The position numbers were made by a program, and so were the translations under genes. Shown one piece after another: positions 9,018-32,571 of a stretch of 33,083 bases of DNA (position 1 is its first letter; each line of letters begins with the position of its first letter). The DNA comes from a virus. The stretch lies in IMG/VR virus record IMGVR_UViG_3300021376_000206, positions 1-33,083 of that record. One strand, given 5' to 3'. The notes beneath the pieces were generated by a model, which saw only the letters and a list, made by a program, of their open reading frames with translations, was not told where the DNA came from and ran no database searches.

Positions 9018-9208
9018 AATCTCCACACGCGCAAGCCTTTAATACCATTCTCTACTACACCTTTCATTTCTATAGAATAGCGCAATCTTTTAGCCACTAG
9101 CTTTACCTCTCTTTTAGCCTCTTCTAAATCTAAGCAAGGGATAAAGAATGTTCTCCCCGGCTTAAATTTGGCCCAGTCAATTTCAAAACTAATCCCGTGA
9201 ACCTTCAT
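9011..9208 (-). CDS. Small conserved-looking hypothetical protein (65 aa)
   Basis: This is the last gene of the leftward replication operon. The product is a basic 65-residue protein with a plausible alternating strand-helix-strand layout: FEIDWAKFKPGRTFFIP, then a Leu/Glu/Lys helix, then RVWRL at the end. Small proteins of this shape with a stretch like TFFIPCLDL occur as uncharacterised genes in aquatic phages, but I cannot name a function. The ATG overlaps the 3' end of the primase-helicase gene by 20 bases in another frame and lacks a clear Shine-Dalgarno sequence, so translation is probably coupled to that gene. The terminator at 8914-8932 lies downstream. Confidence 0.65.
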   Translation of the reverse strand: MKVHGISFEIDWAKFKPGRTFFIPCLDLEEAKREVKLVAKRLRYSIEMKGVVENGIKGLRVWRLG

Positions 9209-12005
9209 TTGGTGGTGCTAAAGCGGCTACATAATCATCCGGGTTAATAAAATCCCCTTTGGAGCAATCAAACATAAAAGCATCTGTGGGGAGCCCCTCA
9301 ATCTTTGTGCCCTTTGCCATACGTTTTTTAACTGTCTTTTCATATATGCCATCAGACTCTAGAGCTTTTAAAGCGTCTTTCAAAGTAATTCGGTTATCAG
9401 TGCAGAACTTTCGTAAATGCTTGGCGCTGATAAATAGCTTCTTGGTGTCGGGCTCCATACGGACTAGCAAGTCATATTTGGGTTCCACAACTGGCAGTTG
9501 AGCCATCCCCGTACGGTTGTCGGCGGCGTCATTAATAACCAGAATGCTGCCCCGATGTTCATTTAAGAATTCACCAATGACGCTGGCTTGGTTAGTAGCG
9601 GGCGGTTTAATCTCCTGACGCATCTGAGAAAACTCTTTAATCATCCATTCAAAAACCCGCTTAACATCAATATCAATCAAACCAAGACGTTTGGCAATCA
9701 TCCCCCCAGCGATATTGCATGCAGCTACGCCAGACCAGAACCGCTCTCGACCACTAAATTTAACTTTCTTGTCAATGACTAGCTGAATCTGTTTGACCAT
9801 GTTAATTGCTTCTTCAAGATTACCAACTAGCCATTGCAAATAGGGACGCCCTGCATGACCATAGTTTGTAAACATTTTTGGAAACAACTCATCAGCTTCT
9901 GCCTTAGTCATTAAAGAAGTCTCAGGAATTTGATATTCAATTAATCGCATCAACTCTCCATCTGGTGTAGCAGCCATAGAGCCGAGCTTGTCGTAAAACG
10001 AAGCATTTGATGTGCAGACGCACAATAAAGACCACTTAGAATTATTGATTCGTTCTACGTTAACTTGTGACTGCATACGCCCCCGCGCTCGACCTTGCGA
10101 TACGGCATACAAGAAATCAGAGAAGTCATTGCTATCCATTTTTGTAACCTCATCGCAACTAATAGGCAGGTGGTTCATGATGCCCATGCGATTAAGTTTC
10201 ATATTCATGGTGTCACGCCAGATAAGCATCTGCTCGTCTGGATGTCCGTATACACTATGCATCAACTGAGCAATAGTCGTTTTACCTGTACCAGATCGGT
10301 TGTTGATAAGGTTGATAACTGCGCCTTTTAGATTTATATGCTTGAGAAGAGGGGAACCAAACGCCGTGAAAAAGCCAAACGCATGAGGCTCAAACCCTTC
10401 ACGATTGTAAACATTTGCCACCTCTTTCCATTCATCTAAAGTACCAACTGGTTGCATGAATTCAGAAAGAGCACTTGTTGCAGCCGATGGTGGGCTATAT
10501 CGAATTGCCTCGGCGCTAATCTCTTGGTCTCCGACAATAAATTTTCTGTCTTTATCAGTCCATCCAAATTGCATTCTCATAACCTCCACTTCAGTTTTAA
10601 ATTGTAGCTCGTTAATAAATTTAATCATGAATTGGGAAATCGCATCCATTTGCTTAACGTTGCCGACTACCCCATACCATCCTAAACGCTCTTTTATTTT
10701 TTCTTTAGACATAAGATCTGTAACTGGTAAGGCAAATTCTCTTATTCCGTCCTTTGGTAGGTGAAGCCGAATCCAAGCTACCTCACCCCTATGTGGGTCG
10801 TGCATCCGTTTGACAATATACAAATCATGTGGATAGATAACATCCGGGTCTTCACCATCGCCATTAGATCGGTAAATGCCGCCGTTCTTACCACGGAAAT
10901 ACGGGAACGGATACTCTGGAATAACAACCTTGGATGAGGGTAGCTCAGATATTTCTTGAGGTATTTCAACTACGTTATCTTCCGGTGCAGCACGGACAAT
11001 CTTTTTACCAAGCTGTATTGGTCCCGTAATCTTTCCCTTGTGCTGGCACCCATCGCAACCCCCGGAGTTATACTTCTCAAACGTAACACACTTCTGTGGG
11101 CCTCCGGTGTCCATAGCTTTGCGAACAGTTTCGGCGGCGTTGTAGCCTGGATGCCCTTCTGAAATTTTATGTATTGCTACGTCACGATCTTCACAAGCCC
11201 ATGCTACAGATAATCCAGCACGCCACAAATTGTAATCAACAGTATCTTGTTCTGTAGCAATCTTTGCTATCTGAGCGCAGCCTTCACCCTTAATTGTTTT
11301 AGCAATAATTATTTTGAACCACTTCTCTTCGTTGTTTGCCAACGCTTTAGTTAGTTCATTTAATTGGGCTTTAGGTAGTCCTAGTTCTGGTGGTGCAATT
11401 AATACGCCGACACGACTCTTAATTGTTTCGTAATCTACTTCTGGTGCTAAAGCTAAAATAGATACAGGTTTAGGTGGGTCATCTTTAAAGTTAAGTGTCT
11501 CAGGAACACGCAGTATAGATGCAGTATCAGCTGTTCGCGCTGGATCGGCGTAAAACTCGTTTTCTTCACACAGATACTTAATCCGTTCGGCAACGGGCTT
11601 CCATTCCTTAGCACTGACCGTTTTTGTGAGCCGCCAGTAAACATGTAACCCACGCCCAGAATTAACAATAGATGGCTTTGGCAGTTTTAATTCTTTGCAA
11701 AACTTATGTAGCGCCTGTAGCCCTGTTGCTTGGTCTGGATAGTCTTTACCTTCTCCGCAATCAATGTCAAGCCAGAAAGCCTTAATGTACTTAGCATTAC
11801 CCTGTGTCCTTGATGTATTAGATTCATACTTAGAACAAGCAAAGTAAACGTCATACTTCTGCCCTAACAGACGTGCAATTTCCTCCTCTGCAGCATCCAA
11901 TGTTTCATGGAACGTCTGCTTTGGCGTGCCCCCCTTTTTCAACCCAACGATGCAATACCAACCTTCGGATGGCAACACCGCTTGTAATAGTTCTGTTGTT
12001 GACAT
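9189..12005 (-). CDS. Primase-helicase (AEP-like primase fused to P-loop helicase)
   Basis: This 938-residue protein is predicted to make primers and unwind DNA at the phage fork. The N-terminal part shows archaeo-eukaryotic primase-type motifs: FWLDIDCG with D80 and D82 as metal ligands, SGRGLH at 116-121, and RVPETLNF from 166. A Cys-rich knuckle (GGCDGC) lies in the middle. The C-terminal part carries a Walker A motif GTGKTT at 572-577 (K575) and a Walker B at LPISCDE (D618, E619), followed by conserved Ser and Asn positions typical of superfamily 3/DUF927-like helicases. It lies 2 bases downstream of the HTH gene and in one operon with the SSB-like gene, which fits a replisome set. The start is the first ATG after the HTH stop, preceded by AAGG. 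The exact helicase subfamily is uncertain, but the primase-helicase call is firm. Confidence 0.85.
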   Translation of the reverse strand: MSTTELLQAVLPSEGWYCIVGLKKGGTPKQTFHETLDAAEEEIARLLGQKYDVYFACSKYESNTSRTQGNAKYIKAFWLDIDCGEGKDYPDQATGLQALHKFCKELKLPKPSIVNSGRGLHVYWRLTKTVSAKEWKPVAERIKYLCEENEFYADPARTADTASILRVPETLNFKDDPPKPVSILALAPEVDYETIKSRVGVLIAPPELGLPKAQLNELTKALANNEEKWFKIIIAKTIKGEGCAQIAKIATEQDTVDYNLWRAGLSVAWACEDRDVAIHKISEGHPGYNAAETVRKAMDTGGPQKCVTFEKYNSGGCDGCQHKGKITGPIQLGKKIVRAAPEDNVVEIPQEISELPSSKVVIPEYPFPYFRGKNGGIYRSNGDGEDPDVIYPHDLYIVKRMHDPHRGEVAWIRLHLPKDGIREFALPVTDLMSKEKIKERLGWYGVVGNVKQMDAISQFMIKFINELQFKTEVEVMRMQFGWTDKDRKFIVGDQEISAEAIRYSPPSAATSALSEFMQPVGTLDEWKEVANVYNREGFEPHAFGFFTAFGSPLLKHINLKGAVINLINNRSGTGKTTIAQLMHSVYGHPDEQMLIWRDTMNMKLNRMGIMNHLPISCDEVTKMDSNDFSDFLYAVSQGRARGRMQSQVNVERINNSKWSLLCVCTSNASFYDKLGSMAATPDGELMRLIEYQIPETSLMTKAEADELFPKMFTNYGHAGRPYLQWLVGNLEEAINMVKQIQLVIDKKVKFSGRERFWSGVAACNIAGGMIAKRLGLIDIDVKRVFEWMIKEFSQMRQEIKPPATNQASVIGEFLNEHRGSILVINDAADNRTGMAQLPVVEPKYDLLVRMEPDTKKLFISAKHLRKFCTDNRITLKDALKALESDGIYEKTVKKRMAKGTKIEGLPTDAFMFDCSKGDFINPDDYVAALAPPNEGSRD

Positions 12006-12007
12006 CC

Positions 12008-12262
12008 TTAATCCAGATGGGTTTTTCTTTTAAGTTTTTTAAGGGTATCCTCAATTTTCTCAATATGTTTCTTACGTGGGATTTCCTGCCCCTTAAACCA
12101 TTTGTAGATGGTCATACGGCTTACACCAAAGAAATCTGCTACGTTTGAAACTGGTATTTCTTGAGCAATACACATCCTCCCCAGCATTACGCCGGGAGAG
12201 GATGTCGAGGCTGACTTATTTGTCTCAATAATACGAGACGAGTAACCACGAGAATCCGTCAT
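12008..12262 (-). CDS. Small helix-turn-helix DNA-binding protein
   Basis: An 84-residue basic protein with one helix-turn-helix: about residues 38-62 read IPVSNVADFFGVSRMTIYKW, the form seen in Cro/XRE-type or recombinase-type HTH domains. The C-terminus is a Lys-rich helix. It sits between the SSB-like gene (2 bases upstream) and the primase-helicase (2 bases downstream), so the three are surely co-transcribed. It may regulate the replication genes or mark the origin, but nothing in the sequence decides between these. There is no dimerisation domain of the CI repressor type and no peptidase domain, so it is not a classic lysogeny repressor. Confidence 0.75.
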   Translation of the reverse strand: MTDSRGYSSRIIETNKSASTSSPGVMLGRMCIAQEIPVSNVADFFGVSRMTIYKWFKGQEIPRKKHIEKIEDTLKKLKRKTHLD

Positions 12263-12264
12263 GA

Positions 12265-13137
12265 TTACTCATCATCCGTAGCCCAGTCGGCCATAACCGA
12301 GGCCAGATCTGCTTTGGGAGCAGGAGCATCAGCGGTTTTTTTAGTAGTCTTTTTAACCGGCTCAGCCACTTCAGCTTTGGGGACTTCCAGTGCTGCTACG
12401 GGTGCGGCAATAGCCTTTTGTTTAGAGTCGGCTTGAGAAGCGGTCTGAATAACTGCAGACTTGGCTTCGGGCGTAGAACCCTGCGCTTTAGCGACTTCCC
12501 ATTGCTCACGGTTTAAAAATCCAACCGGCTTGAAGATAAGTTTGGGCGACTCACTATCAGAGTCAAACTTCATCTCCGTAACAATCATATTAATATTGTA
12601 GCCCTGCGAAGCAACGTACTTAGCATACTGCTCAAACGGCATATGATCTTGATCACCCTTACCAAAATAAGATTTGGACGGTAGGATTAACTGATAGACA
12701 GAACCTTTGATGTCGTCAGCCAACGCTACGGCAAGACGCTTTTCAAACCGGCAAGCACGGCTGTCTTTCTGACCCGAACCTTTGATGTTCTGAGGGCACC
12801 CTTCACAATTAGTATGCTGCGGATCTTCAATACTTGCGTCAGGAGTTATGCCATCATTAGACCAGCAATCGGGAGGAGCCGACTCACCGGGGACATATGC
12901 ACCCTCGTAAAACTTACGGGCCACATGTTTGGTGCCGTTTACGACAACAATGTTCATCGCACGATTTTCATTCTTGGCAATCTCTTCACCATTAACCATC
13001 ATGCGAAACACTGAACCACGGATAGAAATCCGCTTCATGCCACCAGAACCACCAAGTGATTTGGTTAATTCATCAACGCCAACTTCTTTGATGTAATCAG
13101 GGACTGCTTGTTGGAACAAACTTACTTCGTTGCTCAT
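12265..13137 (-). CDS. Putative single-stranded DNA-binding protein with zinc-binding Cys set
   Basis: This 290-residue protein is a likely single-stranded DNA-binding replication protein. A central segment has four cysteines, C91, C111, C114 and C129, with the spacing of a structural zinc site (CEGCPQN in the middle). A β-rich core runs to about residue 215. After a Pro/Ala/Lys-rich flexible linker (about 230-275) the protein ends in the acidic, aromatic tail MADWATDDE, a hallmark of SSB proteins that recruit partners. The ATG overlaps the stop of the upstream coiled-coil gene by one base (TAATG), so translation is coupled. The neighbours are primase-helicase and HTH genes. I infer the SSB role from the Cys set, the tail and the context. 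It is not a bacterial OB-fold SSB by obvious sequence. Confidence 0.65.
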   Translation of the reverse strand: MSNEVSLFQQAVPDYIKEVGVDELTKSLGGSGGMKRISIRGSVFRMMVNGEEIAKNENRAMNIVVVNGTKHVARKFYEGAYVPGESAPPDCWSNDGITPDASIEDPQHTNCEGCPQNIKGSGQKDSRACRFEKRLAVALADDIKGSVYQLILPSKSYFGKGDQDHMPFEQYAKYVASQGYNINMIVTEMKFDSDSESPKLIFKPVGFLNREQWEVAKAQGSTPEAKSAVIQTASQADSKQKAIAAPVAALEVPKAEVAEPVKKTTKKTADAPAPKADLASVMADWATDDE

Positions 13138-17325: not shown

Positions 17326-17485
17326 GGCTTTTCACCGCTGCTCGCATCAGGCGTAATTCAACTATGACTTCATTTATTATTCCTGCGGCTTCTTTAAACT
17401 TGTTTTTAAGAAGCAGTTCATGCACTTCTGTTAACTTCTTTTTGGTTTCTAAATAGTGCGGGGCATAGTCAATCTTGTCCTTCAT
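17315..17485 (-). CDS. Small helical hypothetical protein (56 aa)
   Basis: The start is taken at ATG 17485 ([17 protein letters not shown]) because it overlaps the stop of the sigma-like gene in an ATGA junction, whereas the upstream ATG at 17503 would lie inside that gene. The product is a helical hairpin of about 56 residues ([19 protein letters not shown], then [16 protein letters not shown]). The function is not recognised. Its location right after the sigma-like gene might suggest a partner, but no sequence evidence supports this. Confidence 0.6.
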
Positions 17486-18231
17486 TCTTCTTTCTCCGTC
17501 CATTTACTGTTACCTTCTTCATCAAATGTCCAAGCAGGTGTGTGCGCGACATCATTTACCCAAAAAGAAGATTCATACCCCAGATCTATTATTTTTTTAG
17601 CGTTTTTTAATCTTAACTTTCGTAGCGCTTTTATTTCTATTTGCCTAATTCTTTCTCTTGTGCAATCTAACATTTTTGCAACTTCTTCTAAAGAGTAGCC
17701 GGAATCACCATGTAACCCAAATCTGTATTCCAAAACTCTTTTTTCTCTTGGAGTTAAATGCTCAAGCGCATTTCTTATGTGTTCTTTAAATTCTTTCTTT
17801 TCTACAATTTCGTCAGGTTGATCAGGCAGTTCGTAGTCAACCCCCTGCACCGCGTTATTTAGTTTTAGTATGTTTCCCCCAAGAATGGCATGCGGATGAT
17901 CTTGGTAACTATTTGAGTTAAACCACGTTGAATTTTTTCGTGTTTTTAAAGTTAACTGCTCGGCCGTCCAAAGGTCTGTGGGGGCAGCGCCAAGTACTTC
18001 CATAAGACGTTTAGCAGCAGGACTAAACTCACCAGCCTCGTTAAGTGGCTTTTGTCTAAAACATATAAAAGAATTAACATCGCCGTCTCTTAATTCATTT
18101 TGTCTACAAAATTCAGCAACGCTTTTAAATCCTAAATTTTCAATAGCAGATAGCAACAAATTGTTACGAATAGAAACTTTAATTCGATACGGCTGTTCGT
18201 CACTCGTTGCATCGTAGTTAACAATGTCCAT
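17482..18231 (-). CDS. Sigma-70 region 4 protein with N-terminal phage domain
   Basis: I choose the ATG at 18231 ([10 protein letters not shown]), which has GGAG six bases upstream. The longer frame begins with GTG at 18255 inside the polymerase gene. The 249-residue product ends in a clear sigma-70 region 4: [15 protein letters not shown] (from about 159), then a helix-turn-helix with [19 protein letters not shown] (from about 190), very close to RpoD. Region 2, which melts the -10 element, is absent. The N-terminal 15-95 segment ([28 protein letters not shown]) resembles an HTH-like domain found in phage sigma-like proteins. It could bind host RNA polymerase and recruit it to -35-like sites of late genes, or block host sigma. 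Both are inference. Confidence 0.75.
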
Positions 18232-20014
18232 AACTTTCTCCACATTCAACTTCACAGGTAAGGGGTAGTGTTTGCGCCCACTTGGGTCGCCACTTCATGC
18301 ACTCAGTGACGTACGCTACGGCCTCCGTGGCTTCAGCTTCTTTAGCAATGCATACGACAGAATCGTGTACTGTCAGCGCAACTTTGTATTTTTTTGCAAT
18401 CTTTAACATTTGTTCGCCAACCGCGCATCGAGCTACAGCTTGTGTGAAGTTCTCCGTAACTTTTCCCCCATAAATTTTTGTTTCACCCATTCTTGTTTTG
18501 TAAACATATTGTCCGTCCAAATCTTTTGAAAGTTGCGGATATCGAATAAGTAAACCTGATGGCAAGCGAATGCCTCCGTCTTCTACGGTTATCACTTCAG
18601 GGTGCATACCAAGTGGCGTAGTTTGACGTGCAGCGATTGCGTCTAAAGCCTTTTGAGCCTCTTTCCAAAGCAGCGGGATGTGCGGATAAGTTTCTCGGTA
18701 GATGTAGATAATTCGTTGACACTCATTCTCCGGTAGCGCAACCCCAAAAACCTTAAGTTGAGCCTGAAACTTAACCGCGCCCATTCCGTATCCTGCCCCG
18801 AGGATAGTCGTCTTACCAACAAATCTTTCCTCTTTCGTAATTTCTTCGACAGGCTTACCATATATTGCCGACGCCATGATCTTGTAGACATCTTTACCTT
18901 TATCAAACGCATCAACTAAGTCCTCTTGTCCGGCTAACCACGCCACAGCACGCGCTTCAATCTGTGATGAGTCGGCATTAATAATTACATAACCTTTTGG
19001 GGGTGTTATTACTTTTTTAAGCGTCCCATTCCTCGGTAGATTTTGAAGATTAAGTTTATCATCACCGCCCCAACGCCCTGTATGCGCAGCGTAATACCGC
19101 AACGGCACAGGTAGATTGCCCCTTTTAGCTATCTCAATAAACCTTTCAGTTCTTGTCTCTTCCAACGTACTCTTTGTGCCTAGTCGTGCAGCAACAAGTG
19201 CTTGTACCCGCAGATCTTCATGATCCTGTAATTCTTTCAATCCTTCGTCAGACTTAGCCAAGGCCCATGTCTCTTTGCCTGTCGCCGGACTAATCTTAGT
19301 CGGCACAACCACGCCAAGGCTTTGCAGTAGCGCAGCAAACCTATCGTTAGAAAGGAGCGTGTCTTTGTCGGAGTCGGCAGCACGCATTAACTTTTCTTTG
19401 CGCTCTTTGACTTCTTCAAGATGCTGCTCTAGTAATGGAAGATTTAATTCTAAGACCGGCTCCGTAAACATTCGCAAAGTGAGGTCAATAAGTTTAAGTT
19501 CTGTTTTATTAAATCTAGGGGCAAGGCGTTGAAAAAGGCAATAAGTAAGGTCAACGTCATTACGACAATAATCGCCGTAGCGGCTAAGATCCTCATCAAG
19601 AAACGCTGCTCGTCTCTTGCCCATCGCATTAACCACTTCATTGCCTTTTACTCCTAAGTTGTAGCGTTCAGCTAACTTCGCCAAACTGTTGCCTGCCTCA
19701 GTACCATCAGTAGCACGTGCCATGCATAGCGTATCTAACCATGCAAAAGGACGAATCCTAAAACGCCAAGACAGAATAGCCCCGTCAAAAAGAGTATTGT
19801 GGGCAAGAACAAAGCTGTTAGCCCAATCAAAACTTCCCAAGAATTCCGCAGTTTCTTCATGTGTTCCACTAAACCACTCTGTCTCGTTGTCATCTACTTT
19901 TACTCCTACGCCAATAACTTCAAAGCGATCATCACGCACATACTCCTCAGTAGTCATCTTAGATAAAGAAAACTCTTTGTCGTAATAGGTTTCAAAGTCT
20001 ACCGTGATAATCAT
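18218..20014 (-). CDS. Family A DNA polymerase with 3'-5' exonuclease domain
   Basis: A 598-residue replicative polymerase of the PolA family without a 5'-3' exonuclease domain, as usual in phages. Proofreading motifs are present: DFETYYD (D6, E8), LAHNTLFDG, and YCRNDVDLT for ExoIII. Polymerase motif A is [10 protein letters not shown] with D348. Motif B (O-helix) reads R397 to G407 with K401, L405 and the following AGYGMG. Motif C is LTVHDSVV with D551. Two positions are notable. The site equal to Phe762 of E. coli Pol I is Leu405, and the residue after the motif C aspartate is Ser rather than the usual Glu. The start overlaps the upstream stop in ATGA. The gene overlaps the sigma-like gene by 14 bases. 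Function is certain at family level. Confidence 0.92.
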
Positions 20015-22603: not shown

Positions 22604-22767
22604 GACTGCCTCTCTTTCATTTGTTTAGTTACAAGATACTCAACAACCTGAGTAAGCGATGGAACAAACCCAACCTTCACCGCAAACTCAGATTGAAGCG
22701 TTCTGATGTCCTCGTATGTTTTGGTGTTGATACGAATGGACTTGCCTTGATCTTTGTCGTTGCTCAT
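22600..22767 (-). CDS. Ribbon-helix-helix (CopG/Arc-like) protein, 55 aa
   Basis: A short gene easily missed because of its size. The product begins MSNDKDQGKSIRINTKTYED: the strand KSIRIN, the helix TYEDIRTLQSEFAV, and a second helix SLTQVVEYLVTKQMKE. That is the ribbon-helix-helix layout of dimeric repressors. Its ATG overlaps the VWA stop in an ATGA junction, and its stop overlaps the DUF3150-like ATG in another, so the frame is well supported. RHH dimers bind palindromic operators, which makes it a candidate regulator of this operon. No target is proven. Confidence 0.75.
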   Translation of the reverse strand: MSNDKDQGKSIRINTKTYEDIRTLQSEFAVKVGFVPSLTQVVEYLVTKQMKERQS

Positions 22768-24005
22768 ATATGCACCACCTTTCCATATTTGTTAGTAAAT
22801 ACTTTGTTATCTTTGATACACCACAGCAGAGGAGCCTTGATCTGACTCCACTCACCCTCACCTTCATAGAAGCACCCATCGGTTAGCATCACCACACAAT
22901 CAGGTTCGATACGCTTATCACCCATGAACTTGATCACGCAGTTAGGGTCTGTGCCACCACCACCTCTTGGTTTCGTAGAATCAGTCAAAGTTTGAACCGC
23001 TCCGTCTTCGTAGGTTTCATGCCCTGCGACATGGGTATCCCAATACATCAACTCGACTTTCTGTGGTGTAACTTCATCGCATACAGAGCGCACCTCGCTT
23101 AAGAACTCTGCGAGAACTTCTCCGTCTATTGAGCCTGATGTGTCGATGCCCACCGCAATGCATTGAAGTCGGCGGGATATGGTCTGCGGTAGATACACCC
23201 CTGCTCCGATAAGTCTGCGATTGAACCGCCGCCACGATGAGTCATCACGCCCCTTCGCTACTTGCTTGATGAAGTCACGCAACACTTCTTTCCAGTCGAT
23301 CTTAGGGGTCAGCAACTCATGGATTTCTCTAGAAATATTTCCGTTCATCTTACCGGCCAACAACGCACCTTGTCGTAATGCGTTGTCGATTTCCTTTGCA
23401 ATCTGTTCGGCTTCTTTGTCATCCATCTCGTTAGCCTCATCCCACAGATGTTCGTCAAACCCCTGCGGCTCATCGTCTTGGACATTCCTAGATGGACTAG
23501 GATTGTCCGCAACACCTTCCTCATCATCACCCTTACCACGAGGAGGATTCTCTTTCTCTAGAATAGTAAAGACTTGGTAAGTGTCCATACCACGAAAGCG
23601 TTCATCCACTAAGCCCATGACTTTGCCTTCCTCGTCAGTCGGCATGGCTACGATCTCTTCGTCAGGGTCATAATCTTTTATTTGCAGGTTAATCACATAA
23701 TCACACGCAGCATTCGCTAGCCCACGGTTCCTCTTATAAAGTTTTTCCCAGGTTGTTAAGTGGCGATACGCTTTGTGCATCGCCTCGTGCAACACAAGAA
23801 AGCCAAGTTGCTTATCGTTCAGACGATCCACGAACCCCCGCCCGTAAGTAACATTGACACCATCAGTTGCCGCAGTCGGCATGAGGTCGTCCACCTTGAC
23901 CTTGCCCACCATAAACAAACCTGAGAATAAACAAAACTTCTTGTGACGCATTAGAGTCACATGGACTCTTTCAATGCGTTGTTCCGCAGATAACTTAACC
24001 ATCAC
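22764..24005 (-). CDS. Metallopeptidase-like/VWA domain protein (DUF2201-like)
   Basis: This 413-residue protein joins two parts. The N-terminal part has a zinc-peptidase signature HEAMH (H73, E74, H77) followed by RHLTTWEKLYKRN, as in the putative metallopeptidase domain DUF2201. The C-terminal part is a VWA-like domain: GIDTSGS with D288, S290 and S292 as MIDAS metal ligands, then a Rossmann-type fold. An acidic linker joins them (about residues 155-195) and contains the in-frame palindrome copy at 23480-23508, encoding DNPSPSRNV. MoxR ATPases usually work with VWA partners, and the MoxR gene lies three genes upstream in the transcript. Proposed role: protein remodelling with that ATPase. 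The cellular target is unknown. Confidence 0.8.
   Translation of the reverse strand: MMVKLSAEQRIERVHVTLMRHKKFCLFSGLFMVGKVKVDDLMPTAATDGVNVTYGRGFVDRLNDKQLGFLVLHEAMHKAYRHLTTWEKLYKRNRGLANAACDYVINLQIKDYDPDEEIVAMPTDEEGKVMGLVDERFRGMDTYQVFTILEKENPPRGKGDDEEGVADNPSPSRNVQDDEPQGFDEHLWDEANEMDDKEAEQIAKEIDNALRQGALLAGKMNGNISREIHELLTPKIDWKEVLRDFIKQVAKGRDDSSWRRFNRRLIGAGVYLPQTISRRLQCIAVGIDTSGSIDGEVLAEFLSEVRSVCDEVTPQKVELMYWDTHVAGHETYEDGAVQTLTDSTKPRGGGGTDPNCVIKFMGDKRIEPDCVVMLTDGCFYEGEGEWSQIKAPLLWCIKDNKVFTNKYGKVVHI
23480..23508. repeat. Dispersed palindrome copy 2, inside the VWA gene
   Basis: The left arm GGACATTCCTAG and right arm CTAGGATTGTCC pair with one mismatch around a five-base loop. The copy is read as codons on the minus strand and gives the peptide DNPSPSRNV in the acidic linker between the peptidase-like and VWA domains. 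Confidence 0.8.
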
Positions 24006-24247
24006 GCTTCTCCTTGTGGTTCAGATTTACCAAGATAACAAGTGTCGTATGCACTACTGACTTGATCAACAATTTGTGCAATAAATGCTTGCTTGGACAT
24101 ATTCAAGTCTGTGCCAATTTCAGCAACCATAAAACACATTGTGTTTAAGGCCGCATCAATATCGCGGTCGGTTAAAACTTCAGCGAGTGCACGATACAGT
24201 TTCATACAATCTTCCCTTTCTTGCTTAGTCGAATTTCGTTTGCGCAT
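24002..24247 (-). CDS. Small helical hypothetical protein (81 aa)
   Basis: The start is placed at ATG 24247 (MRKRNSTKQ), which has AAAGGA close upstream, rather than at the upstream TTG. After a basic N-terminus, the chain is helical (EDCMKLYRALAEVLTDRDIDAALNTM) with a second helix FIAQIVDQVSSAY. No family recognised. Its stop overlaps the VWA start by four bases and its start overlaps the next gene upstream by 23 bases. Confidence 0.6.
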   Translation of the reverse strand: MRKRNSTKQEREDCMKLYRALAEVLTDRDIDAALNTMCFMVAEIGTDLNMSKQAFIAQIVDQVSSAYDTCYLGKSEPQGEA

Positions 24248-24440
24248 CTTCTTTCCTTTCAAATAAAATATTTAATGCAGGGTCAAGCGGAGTGCAGTCC
24301 TTCGCTGGAACCCAACGGACTAACTCACGCCCAAACACATCCTTCTTGAGAACTAATGTGAGCCAAAGCGTAGAGTCGCCAAAGTGTTCCTTGCGTATCA
24401 CTTTCCGCACCTCATTTTTAACCAATGCATACTCATCCAT
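24225..24440 (-). CDS. Small hypothetical protein downstream of MoxR (71 aa)
   Basis: A 71-residue protein with a β-strand-rich centre (STLWLTLVLKKDVFGREL VRWVP) flanked by charged helices. No domain is known to me. The ATG overlaps the stop of the MoxR gene by one base (TGATG), so it is translated by re-initiation with it, and it lies between the ATPase and the VWA gene. That makes a role in the same module plausible but unproven. Confidence 0.6.
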   Translation of the reverse strand: MDEYALVKNEVRKVIRKEHFGDSTLWLTLVLKKDVFGRELVRWVPAKDCTPLDPALNILFERKEDAQTKFD

Positions 24441-25531
24441 CAGAACAAATACTGATTCTCACGCATCCATGTAACAAATGGTGCGCTCGTCATCACCAAA
24501 GATTTCTTAGCGTCAGACTTCATAGCACTCAAACAGAACACAGACTGCAACTCTTTCGGTGTTCGCTTCATGTAGTCGAACCACTTGCCGATGTTGTTGC
24601 GGTCAATTTTCTGCAATGCGTTGAACGCTAAGATGCATAGTGCCGCTGGACTATTCGGGACTTGCGCTCCGTTAGGATTAGTAGTGATCTGCTCCCATGT
24701 TGGTAGCGAGTCAGCAACTTCTAAGTAAGCAAGTAACTCCCTAGCAGAGTAAGCACCGATTGTGCCTTCAAGAGATGCCTTCAATGCGTTGTGACTAAAC
24801 TCTAAGCGTTTCTTTAAGACATTGCTTGCCTTAACCAAAGTGCGTGGAGAACAGCAAGACTGATCAGGTTTCTTGGGATGGAAGATGTGATGATTCTCTG
24901 CCTGCCCACCATCAAGATAAGATGCCAAAACTTGTGGATACTCTTTGACAAACGCAATCATTGTCGGCTCGACATCATTACGGATTGCCCACAGACCCCA
25001 TGATCCTTCTTCAACAGACCCGTCAGGATTAAACCCCGCCCGTGGTTTGTCCACATGAATCCTAGTGATACGCCCGATAGTGTGTGCTTTCATAGTGTCG
25101 CCTACGCCATCGGTTGTCATGTTGCCTGCAATCATTACGATAGAATCAGGATGCAACTTATCTCCGTTAGGTGTCCTACGCTCATGCAGCAAGGGATGCA
25201 ACATATTCTGAACGGCCTGCGGTGCTTTAGTGAACTCGTCAATGAAGATCACAAGCGGCTCGCCGGTGTGCAGTCCCCAATGCTCGTTAAGATAGAAGTG
25301 CGTGGTCTTTGTCTCGTGGTTAGGAACAGGGATGCCGATGTCACCCAACTCTATGTTCGGCCCGTCCATGTAGATGGGCCTGAACCCTGTCCGCTTTGCG
25401 ACCTCGTCATGCATCGCAGTCTTACCGATGCCAGGCTCGCCCACTAAGTGACAAGTGTTGGTGCTACCGATGGACACAACAAGATCCACAACCTCACTCA
25501 AAGATACACGACTGCTTAGATTGATTTCCAT
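24440..25531 (-). CDS. MoxR-type AAA+ ATPase
   Basis: A 363-residue AAA+ ATPase. Walker A is GEPGIGKT at 31-38 (K37). Walker B is VIFIDEF with D98 and E99. After it comes NMLHPLLHERR, and sensor 1 is IVMIAGN near 132-138. The R of RITRIHVDKP lies where an arginine finger is expected. This is the MoxR/RavA form in which an ATPase works with a VWA protein, and such a protein is encoded downstream. MoxR pairs remodel or help assemble protein complexes. Their job in phages is not known. The start is the ATG at 25531, with GAGGAAACC upstream. The gene follows the 320-residue hypothetical by 16 bases. Confidence 0.85.
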   Translation of the reverse strand: MEINLSSRVSLSEVVDLVVSIGSTNTCHLVGEPGIGKTAMHDEVAKRTGFRPIYMDGPNIELGDIGIPVPNHETKTTHFYLNEHWGLHTGEPLVIFIDEFTKAPQAVQNMLHPLLHERRTPNGDKLHPDSIVMIAGNMTTDGVGDTMKAHTIGRITRIHVDKPRAGFNPDGSVEEGSWGLWAIRNDVEPTMIAFVKEYPQVLASYLDGGQAENHHIFHPKKPDQSCCSPRTLVKASNVLKKRLEFSHNALKASLEGTIGAYSARELLAYLEVADSLPTWEQITTNPNGAQVPNSPAALCILAFNALQKIDRNNIGKWFDYMKRTPKELQSVFCLSAMKSDAKKSLVMTSAPFVTWMRENQYLF

Positions 25532-27649: not shown

Positions 27650-27912
27650 ATCCGTATCTCCTCTTGGTTAAATTTAACTTGGTAGCCTAACTCCTTGACA
27701 TACTTAAGAGTGTCTTGGGAAAGCGTTCGACCCCCCTGTATTCTCAAGAATGAAAAGGCAATTGCATTGGCAGGATAAAACCGTAGCGATCCATATTGGT
27801 TTTTGACAGCAACCTCGACAATCCTAGACCGTCTAGGTTTGTCCGTGATTTCTCGTGCTGGCGGGGTTATGTCTTTGATCAGGTCAAAGACGGGTTGCAG
27901 ATGTGTGGTCAT
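27646..27912 (-). CDS. Hypothetical protein (88 aa) carrying palindrome copy 4
   Basis: The start at ATG 27912 (MTTHLQPVFDLIKDI) has AAGGAG eight bases upstream and an ATGA overlap with the zinc-ribbon gene. The longer frame begins within that gene. The 88 residues contain a short helix, then the in-frame palindrome peptide (TDKPRRSRIVEV) and a β-α domain (YGSLRFYPANAIAFSFL, TLKYVKELGYQVKF). No family is recognised. The repeat lies between the N-terminal helix and the domain, where an insertion would do least harm. Confidence 0.65.
   Translation of the reverse strand: MTTHLQPVFDLIKDITPPAREITDKPRRSRIVEVAVKNQYGSLRFYPANAIAFSFLRIQGGRTLSQDTLKYVKELGYQVKFNQEEIRI
27817..27844. repeat. Dispersed palindrome copy 4, inside the 88-aa gene
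   Basis: Left arm GACAATCCTAGA, CG between, and right arm TCTAGGTTTGTC, with one mismatch in the arms. Read on the minus strand it gives DKPRRSRIV, in the same frame as the other coding copies. Confidence 0.8.
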
Positions 27913-28145
27913 GCTCTTGGCTCCTTTTGGTTTGTAAGAAAGAGGTCGGCGGGGTCGTGGATGTATTGGTAGGCCCCCTTGCCGTAGGGGATGGCTACAA
28001 GGTGTTGCGTTGGGTGCAGTCGGTCTAGGTCTGCTTGGCACTCAATGCAAGTCGTTTTCTCCAAGGCGACACGCCGTGGGTCTATGGATGTTCCACAGAT
28101 GCGGCATGGCTTGGGATGCGTAATCGGTGTTTGATTCTCTGGCAT
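27909..28145 (-). CDS. Small C4 zinc-ribbon protein (TraR/DksA-like finger)
   Basis: I take the ATG at 28145 (MPENQTPITHP). The open frame runs on upstream to 28829, but that part crosses the promoter and other genes in another frame and is not coding. The 78-residue product has C14, C17, C33 and C36 as CRICGTSIDPRRVALEKTTC plus IEC, the spacing and the GxxIDxRR pattern of TraR/DksA zinc fingers. DksA-like proteins bind the secondary channel of RNA polymerase, although this one lacks the usual long N-terminal coiled coil. The C-terminus (QYIHDPADLF) is short. A role in adjusting host transcription is possible but unproven. Confidence 0.65.
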   Translation of the reverse strand: MPENQTPITHPKPCRICGTSIDPRRVALEKTTCIECQADLDRLHPTQHLVAIPYGKGAYQYIHDPADLFLTNQKEPRA

Positions 28146-28152
28146 GGTGTGT

Positions 28153-28476
28153 TTACTCCGTATACTCATGGGACATTTGAAAGAACGATGCTGCGCCGCC
28201 TGAGCGATATTTAGCCTTGATGGTGTCGTTGGCGGGGCCTGTGATGTTGCCTGCGGAATCGGGTGTGGGTGTGCCAAGGAAATGATCAAGCAGGGCTTCA
28301 AGGCGCAAGGGCAAGTCGGGTAGGTTGTGGGGGAGCACAAGTCGGTGTAGGTCATCGGTGAGCGAGTCTTTGTAGCGGTAGACAAGCACGATGTTGGATG
28401 GGGGGACGGGGACATTCCTAGATGGTCTAGGATTGTCGGCATATTGTTCCAAGTGATGAGTGATGCGGCCTGCCAT
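28153..28476 (-). CDS. First gene of the leftward early operon, hypothetical (107 aa), with palindrome copy 5
   Basis: A 107-residue protein starting at ATG 28476 with GGAGG five bases upstream. It is the first gene after the strong promoter. The N-terminus MAGRITHHLEQY is followed at once by the palindrome-encoded peptide DNPRPSRNV, a Pro-rich linker, and then a helical part (DDLHRLVLPHNLPDLPLRLEA) that ends in SFFQMSHEYTE. No family is recognised. It is likely among the first proteins made on infection. Confidence 0.65.
   Translation of the reverse strand: MAGRITHHLEQYADNPRPSRNVPVPPSNIVLVYRYKDSLTDDLHRLVLPHNLPDLPLRLEALLDHFLGTPTPDSAGNITGPANDTIKAKYRSGGAASFFQMSHEYTE
28410..28437. repeat. Dispersed palindrome copy 5, in the first early gene
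   Basis: GGACATTCCTAGA, TGG, then TCTAGGATTGTC: near-perfect arms with one mismatch. It encodes DNPRPSRNV near the N-terminus of the 107-residue protein, in the common frame. Confidence 0.85.
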
Positions 28477-28516
28477 GTGAACCTCCGTATGAAAGTGAAC
28501 TGCGTTGCATTGCCAA

Positions 28517-28531
28517 CTGACCTTCGGTCAG
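28517..28531. promoter_or_regulatory. Operator-like palindrome at the early promoter start
   Basis: CTGACC, TTC, GGTCAG is a perfect 6-bp inverted repeat that overlaps the end of the -10 and the expected transcription start. It is well placed for a repressor to block the promoter, or to form a hairpin at the 5' end of the mRNA. Confidence 0.55.
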
Positions 28532-28558
28532 TATAACACACTTTTCTACACTTGTCAA
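28530..28558 (-). promoter_or_regulatory. Strong sigma70 promoter of the leftward early operon
   Basis: Read leftward there is a perfect -35 TTGACA (28553-28558), a 17-base spacer, and a near-perfect -10 TATACT (28530-28535). The first gene begins about 50 bases downstream. The iteron-like heptamers start 24 bases upstream of the -35, so proteins bound there could affect this promoter. Confidence 0.85.
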
Positions 28559-28581: not shown

Positions 28582-28893
28582 ATTGTTCGGAAAAAGCAGA
28601 GGGATAATGTTCGGAATGTTCGAAATGTAGCGGGGACATACGAACAATAGAAATGGCTTGCAGACGCCATTTGAGGCGTATTGTTCATAATGTTCATTTG
28701 TTCAGTTAAATATATATACGGGGGGATTTTTGGTCTAGAACGGCATGCGCTTGCAGAGAGGCTCGAACGAGCATAGGAATTTTTACGGATGCGGGGTAAA
28801 AGTGCTAAAAACACGGAACAATAGAACATTCCTTTATAATCAATGACTTACAACGGAACAATGCATAGAACAATGTCAGAACAATAGAACAAT
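28582..28893. repeat. Iteron-like array of GAACAAT/ATTGTTC heptamers (candidate origin or operator cluster)
   Basis: Thirteen copies of a heptamer close to GAACAAT (or its reverse complement) start at 28582, 28606, 28615, 28642, 28680, 28689, 28697, 28816, 28824, 28856, 28868, 28879 and 28887. Copies left of 28704 mostly read ATTGTTC or AATGTTC. Those right of 28816 read GAACAAT. The two groups face each other across an A/T-rich run, TTAAATATATATA, near 28705-28718. Such layouts occur at replication origins and at multi-site operators. The 9-mer GGAATGTTC at 28613-28621 recurs inverted at 28824-28832. The region from 28477 to 29038 holds no recognisable gene. Confidence 0.75.
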
Positions 28894-28956: not shown

Positions 28957-29027
28957 AAAACTGGTCAGAATAAAAAACTGGTCAGGCGGAGCCTGCCCTG
29001 CCTGCCATGGGCAAAGCCCACGGCAGG
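28957..29027. repeat. Direct repeats and hairpins between the origin-like region and the 44-aa ORF
   Basis: AAAACTGGTCAG occurs twice, 17 bases apart (28957-28968 and 28974-28985). Right of it are CAGGC/GCCTG (28983-28995), which read leftward is followed five bases later by six T residues, and a 12-bp hairpin with one mismatch, CCTGCC-TGGGC paired with GCCCA-GGCAGG (29001-29027). The first hairpin with its T run could end leftward transcripts coming from 29039-29917 and so shield the origin-like region. Confidence 0.55.
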
Positions 29028-29038
29028 GAGCATGGCTT

Positions 29039-29173
29039 TTACGGACGGGTAGACCGCATTTCAAAGGTTTTATTTAAACGATCCCAAACTATTTGGGCAT
29101 ACTTTATGCCCTGAATTTCGACCTTAACAACAGGCAACCCGGAACCACGAGGGCGAAAATAAATTTCAAACAT
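29039..29173 (-). CDS. Possible small protein (44 aa)
   Basis: A 44-codon frame begins with ATG at 29173, with GAGGTG six bases upstream. The product, MFEIYFRPRGSGLPVVKVEI and then a helix ending in WDRLNKTFEMRSTRP, has a believable strand-strand-helix layout. No family is recognised. It follows the 229-residue gene in the same direction. It is short and stands alone, so it could be chance. Confidence 0.5.
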   Translation of the reverse strand: MFEIYFRPRGSGLPVVKVEIQGIKYAQIVWDRLNKTFEMRSTRP

Positions 29174-29227: not shown

Positions 29228-29917
29228 TTACACCGCCGACTTGATATACCGCTTGAGAGCCACGATTGCATCAGCAAGCACCGACTCATCTTCGGACTTA
29301 GCAACCTCGGCCGCAAGTTTACGGAACGACTCTTTCAGAACTTTGAGCCGGGCCTGCTTATCGGCCTTTACGTCTTTCTCAAGAAACTCGACAGCTTTAT
29401 CAAGAGCTTTAGCCTGAGCAATCGACTCAGCAGTGGCCGTTTTATACAGGGTCATTTGAGCTTCCCGCACCTCATCAAGATTTCGGCCCGCCGCTAAATC
29501 ACGAGCCGCTGTTTCGGCTTTCGCTCTTTGCTCCGCTTTACTGACCGACTCTTTTTGAGCCGACTTAGGCTTGATCAATTGGCAGACCTTGAGATACGGC
29601 ACAACCGTCTGATTCCAAGAACTATTAGCCGAATTAGTCGGATTGATCGGCTTGATGGCCTGAGAATCGCACCGCAGAACAAAAGCCGCCTCATACCGCT
29701 TGCGCCCATTTTCCCAAAGGTCAAAGGTCAAAACACCGGCCTTGAACGCTTGAGCAAAGGCCTCTTTGATCTGATCAAGACCTTTGGCCTGATCGCCAGC
29801 GGCATCGCACAACAACTCAGCGCCGCCTTGAATCAGGGAGACTTGCGACTGAGACCACTGAGAAACGCCAACGGCATCAGCAACCGCATCTGCCACCACT
29901 GTCTTTTGGTTTGTCAT
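29228..29917 (-). CDS. Hypothetical Ala/Lys-rich coiled-coil protein (229 aa)
   Basis: The start is the ATG at 29917 (MTNQKTVVADAVADAV) with GGAG eight bases upstream. The longer frame to 29947 would run into palindrome copy 6. Residues 1-100 are mixed, with a β-like stretch FDLWENGRKRYEAAFVLRC. The C-terminal half (about 115-225) is a long Ala/Lys/Glu helix region, likely coiled coil. No family is recognised. It is alone between two long non-coding regions, flanked by hairpins, with its own leader, so it may be transcribed as a single, separately controlled unit. Confidence 0.7.
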   Translation of the reverse strand: MTNQKTVVADAVADAVGVSQWSQSQVSLIQGGAELLCDAAGDQAKGLDQIKEAFAQAFKAGVLTFDLWENGRKRYEAAFVLRCDSQAIKPINPTNSANSSWNQTVVPYLKVCQLIKPKSAQKESVSKAEQRAKAETAARDLAAGRNLDEVREAQMTLYKTATAESIAQAKALDKAVEFLEKDVKADKQARLKVLKESFRKLAAEVAKSEDESVLADAIVALKRYIKSAV

Positions 29918-29937
29918 AATAAATCTCCAATTAAGCC

Positions 29938-29966
29938 GGACAATCATAGAAAATCTAGGAATGTCC
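29938..29966. repeat. Dispersed palindrome copy 6, just upstream of the 229-residue gene
   Basis: GGACAATCATAGA, AAA, TCTAGGAATGTCC: arms with two mismatches. It is inverted relative to the coding copies, judging by which arm holds the GAATG variant. It lies 21 bases upstream of the ATG, in the 5' leader, where a hairpin or bound protein would affect translation or transcription. Confidence 0.75.
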
Positions 29967-30467: not shown

Positions 30468-31070
30468 ATGCCTACAATCCAGATCACTCCGGATAATTCC
30501 GTTGCGTTGCCGGATACGGAGACAGACGATGCACCAGCCACGGTGCGCGAAGCGGTAGAGGTATCGGCAACAACAGCCATAGTTTTACAAGAACTCGGCA
30601 TGGGGTTTGATATGACCCCCGAGGATGAAAAAGCTGCACAAAAACTTTTTGAAGATTTAAGAGCTAACCCAAAAGCTAAACAGCTTCCGACAGAACTAAA
30701 TACCCCAGAAGTTGCGGCACAAGTCGGTGCTTTATTAAAAGCATATGATCAGCAGGTGGTGGCGGATGCCACTCAATTAAGGACACTTATAACGAATAAG
30801 TTGCTCCTTTTGTCTAACTGCGGGGACACCAAGTACGAACTCAAAGCGCTAGAACTATTGGGTAAGATTCAAGACGTGGGGCTGTTCACAGAGAAATCCG
30901 AAGTTACGGTTATCCATAAATCCTCTGAGGATCTGGAAGAAGCTATACGAGACAAGGTTCGCAGGCTTATCCACAGCAATACCATCGACGTAGAACCCTT
31001 GGTGCAAGACTTAGAAGAAGAATTAGGTATCAAGGAAAAGGAGCAAGATGCAAGCACCGACGTTGGCTGA
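30468..31070 (+). CDS. Terminase small subunit (putative)
   Basis: A 200-residue protein before the large terminase. Its N-terminus is acidic and disordered (residues 1-60). The centre is helical (TPEVAAQVGALLKAYDQQVV, then QLRTLITNKLLLLSNCGD), followed by YELKALELLGKIQDVGLFTEK, a pattern common to small terminase subunits of environmental phages. The C-terminus is acidic (EELGIKEKEQDAS). It would bind the packaging site, likely in the preceding non-coding region, and hand DNA to TerL. The stop overlaps the TerL start by 23 bases. The ATG lacks a clear ribosome binding site, so the start is the least certain part. Confidence 0.75.
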   Translation: MPTIQITPDNSVALPDTETDDAPATVREAVEVSATTAIVLQELGMGFDMTPEDEKAAQKLFEDLRANPKAKQLPTELNTPEVAAQVGALLKAYDQQVVADATQLRTLITNKLLLLSNCGDTKYELKALELLGKIQDVGLFTEKSEVTVIHKSSEDLEEAIRDKVRRLIHSNTIDVEPLVQDLEEELGIKEKEQDASTDVG

Positions 31071-32571
31071 GCTTCAGGCCTTATTAAAAGTGCTGCCTAA
31101 TCTCCCAGATGGGGAGAAACGTAAGGTATTTAAGCAACTGGAAGCCTATGAACGGCTGCAAGAACAAGAAAAAGCCAAGAAAAACTATCTTGAGTTTGTA
31201 AAAAAGGTATGGCCTACGTTTATTGGGGGCAGACACCACTCCAGAATGGCTCGGGCGTTTGAGCGTGTAGCTAAAGGTGAGTTGAAACGCCTCATTATTA
31301 ACATGCCTCCACGGCACACCAAGTCTGAGTTTGCCTCCTACCTGCTTCCAGCATGGTTTCTAGGTAATTACCCTCATAAAAAAGTAATCCAAACGTCCCA
31401 TACGGCAGAACTTGCTGTTGGATTTGGTCGGAAAGTGAGGAACTTAGTTGACCAAGAAAATTATCGAGGAGTATTTCAAGGAGTTGAGCTACAAGCAGAC
31501 TCTAAAGCTGCTGGCAGGTGGGCGACTAACGCTGGTGGAGAGTATTTCGCTATCGGTGTTGGGGGTGCTGTTACGGGTAAAGGCGCGGATTTGCTCATTA
31601 TTGACGATCCGCACTCGGAACAAGAAGCAGCCTTAGCCGAAAATAGTCCGGAAATCTACGATAAGGTCTATGAGTGGTACACCTCGGGCCCACGGCAGCG
31701 TCTGCAGCCGGGCGGGGCTATCGTTATTGTGATGACCCGTTGGTCTAAGCGTGATCTGACGGGACAAGTTATCAAAGCAGCCGCCCAAAGGGGTGGGGAT
31801 GAGTGGGAAGTCATTGAATTTCCAGCAATTTTGCCCTCTGGCAACCCACTTTGGCCTGAGTTTTGGTCCCAAAAAGAGCTTGATGCTCTAAAAGAGGAGC
31901 TTCCGAACTCAAAATGGCAGGCTCAGTACCAGCAGAATCCCACTTCTGAGATTTCAGCCATCGTAAAACGGGAGTGGTGGCAGGTTTGGGAAAAAGATGA
32001 CGCCCCACACTGCGACTTTATCCTACAAGCATGGGATACCGCATTTGAAAAGAACAATCGCGCCGACTATTCCGCATGTACCACTTGGGGTGTGTTCTAT
32101 AAAGACGACGATGCGGGCATATCGCAAGCCAACATCATACTTTTGAACGCCTTCCGCGAACGGATGGAGTTTCCTGAGCTAAAGCGCCGTGCCCTTGAGC
32201 AGATGAAAGATTGGGAGCCAGACTCAGTGATTATTGAGAAGAAAGCCTCCGGTGCTCCTTTAATTTATGAGATGCGGGCTATGGGAGTGCCTGTCCAAGA
32301 GTTCACTCCAAGCAAAGGTAACGACAAAATTAGTAGGCTAAACGCAGTTTCAGATTTATTTGCCTCTGGCCGAGTCTGGACTCCTAACTCACAGTGGGCT
32401 GACGAGGTTATAGACGAGGTTGCATCTTTCCCCGCTGGGGAGCATGATGACTACGTGGACAGTGTATCCCTTGCGTTGATGAGGTTCCGCAAGGGTGGGT
32501 ATATTCGCTCCGCACTGGATGAAGAAGACGAATTTTCTGCTTTTAGACGCAGGAAAGAAGCGTATTACTAA
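31048..32571 (+). CDS. terL: Terminase large subunit
   Basis: A 507-residue packaging motor. The ATPase part shows the Walker A variant PPRHTKS at 87-93 (K92), HTAELAVGFGRKVR as the next conserved region, and Walker B LLIIDDPHS with D186 and D187. The motif VMTRWSKRDLTG follows. The RNase H-type nuclease part has AWDTAF with D330, IEKKASGAPL, and HDDYVDS with D467, D468 and D471. This is the normal length and order for large terminases. It cuts concatemers and drives DNA into the prohead through the portal encoded downstream. The ATG has AAGGAG four bases upstream, within the end of terS. The call is secure. Confidence 0.93.
   Translation: MQAPTLAELQALLKVLPNLPDGEKRKVFKQLEAYERLQEQEKAKKNYLEFVKKVWPTFIGGRHHSRMARAFERVAKGELKRLIINMPPRHTKSEFASYLLPAWFLGNYPHKKVIQTSHTAELAVGFGRKVRNLVDQENYRGVFQGVELQADSKAAGRWATNAGGEYFAIGVGGAVTGKGADLLIIDDPHSEQEAALAENSPEIYDKVYEWYTSGPRQRLQPGGAIVIVMTRWSKRDLTGQVIKAAAQRGGDEWEVIEFPAILPSGNPLWPEFWSQKELDALKEELPNSKWQAQYQQNPTSEISAIVKREWWQVWEKDDAPHCDFILQAWDTAFEKNNRADYSACTTWGVFYKDDDAGISQANIILLNAFRERMEFPELKRRALEQMKDWEPDSVIIEKKASGAPLIYEMRAMGVPVQEFTPSKGNDKISRLNAVSDLFASGRVWTPNSQWADEVIDEVASFPAGEHDDYVDSVSLALMRFRKGGYIRSALDEEDEFSAFRRRKEAYY

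Follow-up and report, generated by a model that had tools for sequence, protein, structure and literature searches.

A candidate bipartite iteron origin in aquatic phages that encode a PrimPol-helicase

A 312-bp array of facing heptamers in a viral genome fragment is likely to be the replication origin of the phage, similar in architecture to PICI and SaPI origins with their two iteron sets and bound by a phage-encoded helicase; this reading draws on sequence comparison, a predicted protein structure and analogy with described origins. We regard as evenly balanced the wider proposal that a large, non-integrating, mostly uncultured lineage of aquatic phages combines PICI/SaPI-like bipartite iteron origins with an MCM-like, self-loading helicase-PrimPol fusion, that iteron specificity has been exchanged among relatives, and that residue 893 of the helicase reads the first iteron base. 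No description of the replication start of this phage group was found in the literature searched.

Results

The window (the whole stretch of DNA analysed), a virus record from IMG/VR, has 33,083 bases and is classed as linear; it represents about half a genome, because the nearest near-complete relative, G006, measures 61.7 kb. Comparison of the window with the phage collection by DNA similarity and with Rfam gave no match, and no tRNA was found in it. A preliminary description had reported thirteen heptamers in two groups facing each other across an A/T-rich run, in a gene-free region of about 560 bases beside a strong promoter. The 13 sites are present between 28582 and 28893 (Table 1), 12 as exact GAACAWT and one as GAACAAA, and those of the left arm face those of the right with the sole exception of the oppositely oriented 28642. 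The heptamers, each of 7 bp, are spaced 8 to 9 bp within runs; a further GAACAWT-type copy, at 28443 on the minus strand, lies within the first early gene. When the window was randomised 1000 times with a first-order Markov model, no version had more than 4 GAACAWT sites in 312 bp, against the 12 observed. The gene-free region also stands, extending from the start of the first early gene (28476) to the small ORF at 29039-29173 and enclosing the array, as does the promoter, which begins 24 bp from the outermost heptamer. The A/T-rich run, TTAAATATATATA, is found at 28706-28718, but the 112-bp spacer has an overall GC content of 45% (mean of 40% in 48 relatives) and is markedly A/T-rich only at this inner edge. 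By predicted ease of melting, the weakest 30-mer of the array (28687-28716) falls in the top 0.1% of the window.

The right arm encloses an IHF-like site, AATCAATGACTTA, a perfect match to the consensus WATCAANNNNTTR; its conserved ACTTA extends beyond the IHF consensus. A short dyad, ATGGCGTCTGCAAGCCAT, at 28651-28672 beside the reversed heptamer is possibly an extra binding element of the array. A ATGGCGTCTRCAAGCCAT-like sequence recurs in L006 and partly in L005 and L099.

Table 1. Positions of the array, its neighbours and the replication genes in the window
Feature	Position	Strand	Remarks
Left arm	28582..28703		Sites 28582(-), 28606(-), 28615(-), 28642(+), 28680(-), 28689(-), 28697(-, GAACAAA); kept in relatives
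Right arm	28816..28893		Sites 28816, 28824, 28856, 28868, 28879, 28887, all plus strand; module spacing conserved
Central spacer	28704..28815		112 bp between facing arms, 45% GC; proposed opening region is the A/T-rich inner edge
Weakest duplex of array, candidate unwinding element	28687..28718		Includes TTAAATATATATA; melting prediction
IHF-like site	28838..28850	+	AATCAATGACTTA, between right-arm heptamers
Early promoter	28530..28558	-	TTGACA-17-TATACT, extended -10; 11 of 12 consensus matches
First early gene	28153..28476	-	107 aa, no assigned function; RBS GGAGG at 28481-28485
Second early gene	27909..28145	-	78-aa C4 zinc-finger-like protein; homologues at 63 array loci
Terminator-like hairpin	28983..28995	-	Ends small upstream transcript
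Small upstream ORF	29039-29173	-
239-aa helical protein	29228..29947	-	No assigned function; transcribed toward array; related genes at this place in most loci
Putative terminase small subunit and terminase large subunit	30468..32571	+	Late block flanking array
PrimPol-helicase	9189..12005	-	938 aa; proposed origin binder and replicative helicase
C-terminal winged helix of helicase	9267..9464	-	K893 codon at 9327-9329
HTH protein	12008..12262	-	84 aa; just upstream of helicase gene; alternative or accessory binder
Conserved protein of replication operon	12265..13137	-	290 aa
Phage family-A polymerase	18218-20014

Of 50 representative relatives, 32 have a sigma-70 promoter scoring at least 10 of 12 after the array; on the control side none of the 50 does. 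The first early gene has a 76% identical homologue in L086. Elsewhere in the window, the early operon encodes a 257-aa protein (17482-18255) with a C-terminal sigma-70 region 4 domain, possibly a phage sigma-like factor; a MoxR-type AAA ATPase and a DUF2201 metallopeptidase/VWA protein form a pair (22764-25531) that is kept downstream of the array across the family; and a late protein of 2404 aa (1693-8907) carries an LPD39 (large polyvalent protein) domain.

Relatives with an array were first collected via TerL and via the first early gene. The IHF-anchored pattern heptamer-AATCANNNNNTTR-heptamer then matched 111 stretches of viral contigs; because a sizeable number of matches to this pattern are to be expected by chance, the analysis was confined to loci with six or more heptamers, and removal of weak matches left 93 such loci, of which 88 could be oriented and 56 were non-redundant. 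Collection scans with the TA and TT forms pulled in many chance matches. Across the 56 non-redundant loci, 514 of 578 sites face inward, spacing peaks at 8 to 9 bp and the central gap is mostly 91 to 131 bp. The array lies between the early and late blocks wherever a locus includes both, with homologues of the zinc-finger gene at a median distance of 199 bp (63 loci) and terS-like genes at 1.55 kb (65 loci); TerL is found at 64 loci. A facing-repeat scan that is blind to the motif leads to the same place in most PrimPol genomes. In the TerL relatives HTVC027P and DSL-LC04, which lack a PrimPol match, no array was found in the parts read and the facing-repeat scan did not rise above shuffle level. 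The module of heptamer, IHF-like site and heptamer is complete on both arms, and more symmetric than in the window, in L108, L139, L183, L187, L055 and G098; the G098 array has three IHF-like sites.

The layout is kept while the heptamer changes among relatives, from GAACAWT to TAACAWT, TTACAWT and TATGCAA, as would be expected of protein-binding sites; the IHF-like site persists as well. Three classes (GAACAWT, TAACAWT and TTACAWT) are seen among the TerL relatives collected independently of the IHF pattern, and in 12 changed-heptamer arrays found without that motif an IHF-like site is present inside nine and 26 bp outside a tenth. Record G010 (L046), for instance, has TTACAWT heptamers in the same two arms with IHF-like sites. 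The cultured Pseudomonas phage Rollin has, at record positions 258-690, an array of facing TATGCAA copies with an IHF-like site; its facing-repeat score of 7 is only just above its shuffles (maximum of 6). Rhizobium phage RHph_TM27A has two facing IHF-like sites but no heptamers that stand out clearly. At L556 11832-12480 (G096 31832-32480), TGGTGTTAGGAA..CCTAACA copies and GCGCGCACCGCTGCTTGAG repeats occur beside a mixed GAACAWT/TAACAWT array.

The preliminary description had favoured a replication origin or a large regulatory switch, and had named conservation of the array and GC skew as tests. Both lend support, as scores of relatives carry the array at a matching position in their genomes and, in nine near-complete array genomes, the detrended cumulative GC skew has its minimum 1.4 to 3.4 kb from the array and its maximum 20 to 26 kb away, at the point of convergence of early and late genes. 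This skew pattern agrees with an origin and equally with gene orientation, as the transcribed strand switches at the same place.

The PrimPol-helicase was found in 18 of 20 related records, both misses being fragments. It comprises an AEP primase-polymerase domain (residues 1-200), an MCM-like AAA+ helicase (DUF927; 362-800) and a C-terminal winged helix (848-913). By sequence, the helicase half matches the SCCmec Cch helicase 5dgk (E of 1e-12). In an AlphaFold model built with 37 sequences (mean pLDDT of 85), the winged helix stands at the end of the protein; VIA-align gave residues 362-928 a Z of 30.5 to Cch 5dgk and 27.5 to SaPIbov1 Rep 8tch, and residues 1-200 a Z of 20.2 to the S-2L PrimPol. 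The fold match of this predicted structure to Cch and SaPIbov1 Rep, which draws on Foldseek as well, includes the C-terminal winged helix. In SaPI Rep, the C-terminal domain recognises the iteron origin, and Cch2, which binds short direct repeats, has been proposed to act as two hexamers (PMC7581432). A homologue of the PrimPol-helicase at L479 31249-34332 (MN988461 EVB29_077) is annotated as a putative integrase, which is probably a misannotation.

Helicase alignment columns were compared between 22 GAACAWT genomes and nine TAACAWT/TTACAWT genomes. Fourteen columns separate the heptamer classes, and the independent TAACAWT lineage G098 agrees in three of these (26, 511 and 893), of which only 893 is conserved in the GAACAWT genomes (K in 21, R in one). 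K893 is situated in the wing strand 888-894 and was not retained in either of the two independent switches to heptamers that begin with T. The tree assigns these switches to one clade of ten and, independently, to G098; the support for K893 thus amounts to two events and not many. The residue is K in four more GAACAWT genomes and, read by eye, appears to be R in the distant G013; mixed arrays are ambiguous at this position (N in G011, K in G096). On this covariation, residue 893 of the helicase wing may read the first heptamer base.

The HTH protein at 12008-12262 had been put forward as a binder of the heptamers but is not the best candidate. In most genomes its gene lies immediately before that of the helicase; two unrelated HTH types, however, occur in the replication operons of genomes that share one heptamer, and some array genomes have neither type next to the helicase, for which reasons the HTH protein was rejected as sole binder. 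A fold search with this protein gave no significant match. Where it is present, an Arg before GYS tracks GAACAWT versus TAACAWT/TTACAWT, in one clade switch only. The idea that a Met in its recognition helix reads the second base did not fit G095 and G011. The helicase, acting through its modelled C-terminal winged helix, is the better-supported candidate.

Discussion

We infer origin activity of the array, binding by the C-terminal domain of the helicase, a bidirectional start and bending by IHF. PrimPol-helicase subunits would bind the heptamers through their winged helices, with one ring on each arm, while IHF or a similar bending protein would fold the arms. The two facing helicases would load themselves, melt the A/T-rich edge and depart in both directions, and the fused PrimPol domain would make primers for the family-A polymerase. 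The same complex may also control the neighbouring early promoter.

Some observations do not sit easily with an origin: SaPI origins lie directly behind rep, but the array is distant from the gene for the helicase; taken as a whole, the central spacer is not rich in A/T; and the GC skew is confounded by the switch of gene strand. The strong promoter beside the array also fits a regulatory role, in which the heptamers would be operators for the 84-aa HTH protein or another protein and would, with IHF bending, control the early promoter. A promoter directly after the array in most relatives, an HTH gene in the replication operon and an N-terminal Arg that tracks heptamer class are all in keeping with such a switch. 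Two facing arms of five to seven sites over 300 bp are, however, more than one promoter needs, a single heptamer is found with either of two unrelated HTH types and, in some array genomes, with neither of them next to the helicase, and the Arg link reflects a single clade switch, so that we consider a regulatory switch quite unlikely. A somewhat better, though still low, probability attaches to a combination of the two roles, in which the HTH protein, much as lambda O does, would bind the origin as its recognition or loading factor and bring in the PrimPol-helicase. The position of the HTH gene directly before the helicase gene accords with this, as does the Arg/GYS covariation, a sign of a possible binder other than the helicase; against it, the HTH protein is absent or replaced in several array genomes and the helicase has a Rep-like C-terminal winged helix of its own, as predicted.

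Two further explanations take the array as a site for packaging or recombination. The lambda cosB site combines repeats with an IHF site, and this likeness, together with the nearby terminase genes, would suit a cos or pac site recognised by the terminase small subunit. It is nevertheless very improbable: terS is about 1.5 kb away with other genes between, the array goes with the PrimPol lineage and was not found near the terminase in TerL relatives without PrimPol, and the ends of assembled contigs did not define the array, although locus ends are partly cut and assemblies circularly permuted. Lambda attP, in outline, has arm sites and an IHF site, as the array does, yet attP or transposition ends seem hardly credible here and are largely refuted by a search for tyrosine integrases, which found none in 20 related records while control genomes gave a signal; moreover, the best matches of the helicase among 84,980 bacterial and archaeal genomes reach at most 40% identity over its length, a kinship too distant to point to a host.

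A replication origin remains the reading that we prefer, and its closest parallels are in the PICIs. In these, an AT-rich region is invariably flanked by two sets of iterons (PMC6092414), a bipartite layout that, according to a description of 2018, no known replicon other than PICIs shares. Like the origins of SaPIbov1 and EcCICFT073 (PMC6092414, PMC7581432), the array has two sets of short iterons around a melting region (a candidate one here), an MCM-like helicase as proposed initiator with a C-terminal DNA-binding domain (predicted here) and an iteron sequence that varies between relatives. Here, in contrast, the elements are tailed phages of 57 to 67 kb without an integrase, IHF-like sites lie inside the arms, the helicase is fused to an AEP PrimPol, the spacer is not uniformly A/T-rich and, instead of lying directly 3' of rep, the array is situated at the early/late junction, upstream of the early operon and 16.6 kb away from the gene for the helicase. 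Because of this different position relative to rep and the lack of an integrase, we do not file the array as a PICI origin.

In both structure and sequence, the helicase half is matched best by SCCmec Cch, and Cch2 binds short direct repeats via its C-terminal domain (PMC7581432), as we infer for the phage helicase. The SCCmec Cch2 system, with its putative origin, differs in having a few 5-nt iterons just downstream of the gene and a primase that is a separate CCPol-MP pair. Origins of the pSC101/R6K type likewise combine iterons, an IHF site and an A/T-rich stretch, but all of their iterons share one orientation and the initiator is a RepA/Pi protein rather than a helicase. The alpha protein of phage P4 (with ori/crr), in which primase, helicase and origin binder are united and which works with iterons, is by description similar to the PrimPol-helicase, but it has another primase domain and P4 uses two separate sites. 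P4 alpha and its ori are cited in the PICI study (PMC6092414).

For a widespread group of freshwater and marine phages, these results offer an origin that can be tested, together with candidates for the initiator and for the residue that sets its specificity. If correct, our reading would connect ordinary tailed phages with the self-loading helicases known from pathogenicity islands, and the four natural heptamer variants would form a ready set for examining how this class of helicases reads DNA. The cultured relative Rollin would allow a laboratory test. In this phage (L477 1-520), a second repeat family, AAAGGTAGyaA, with no assigned function, surrounds the TATGCAA array.
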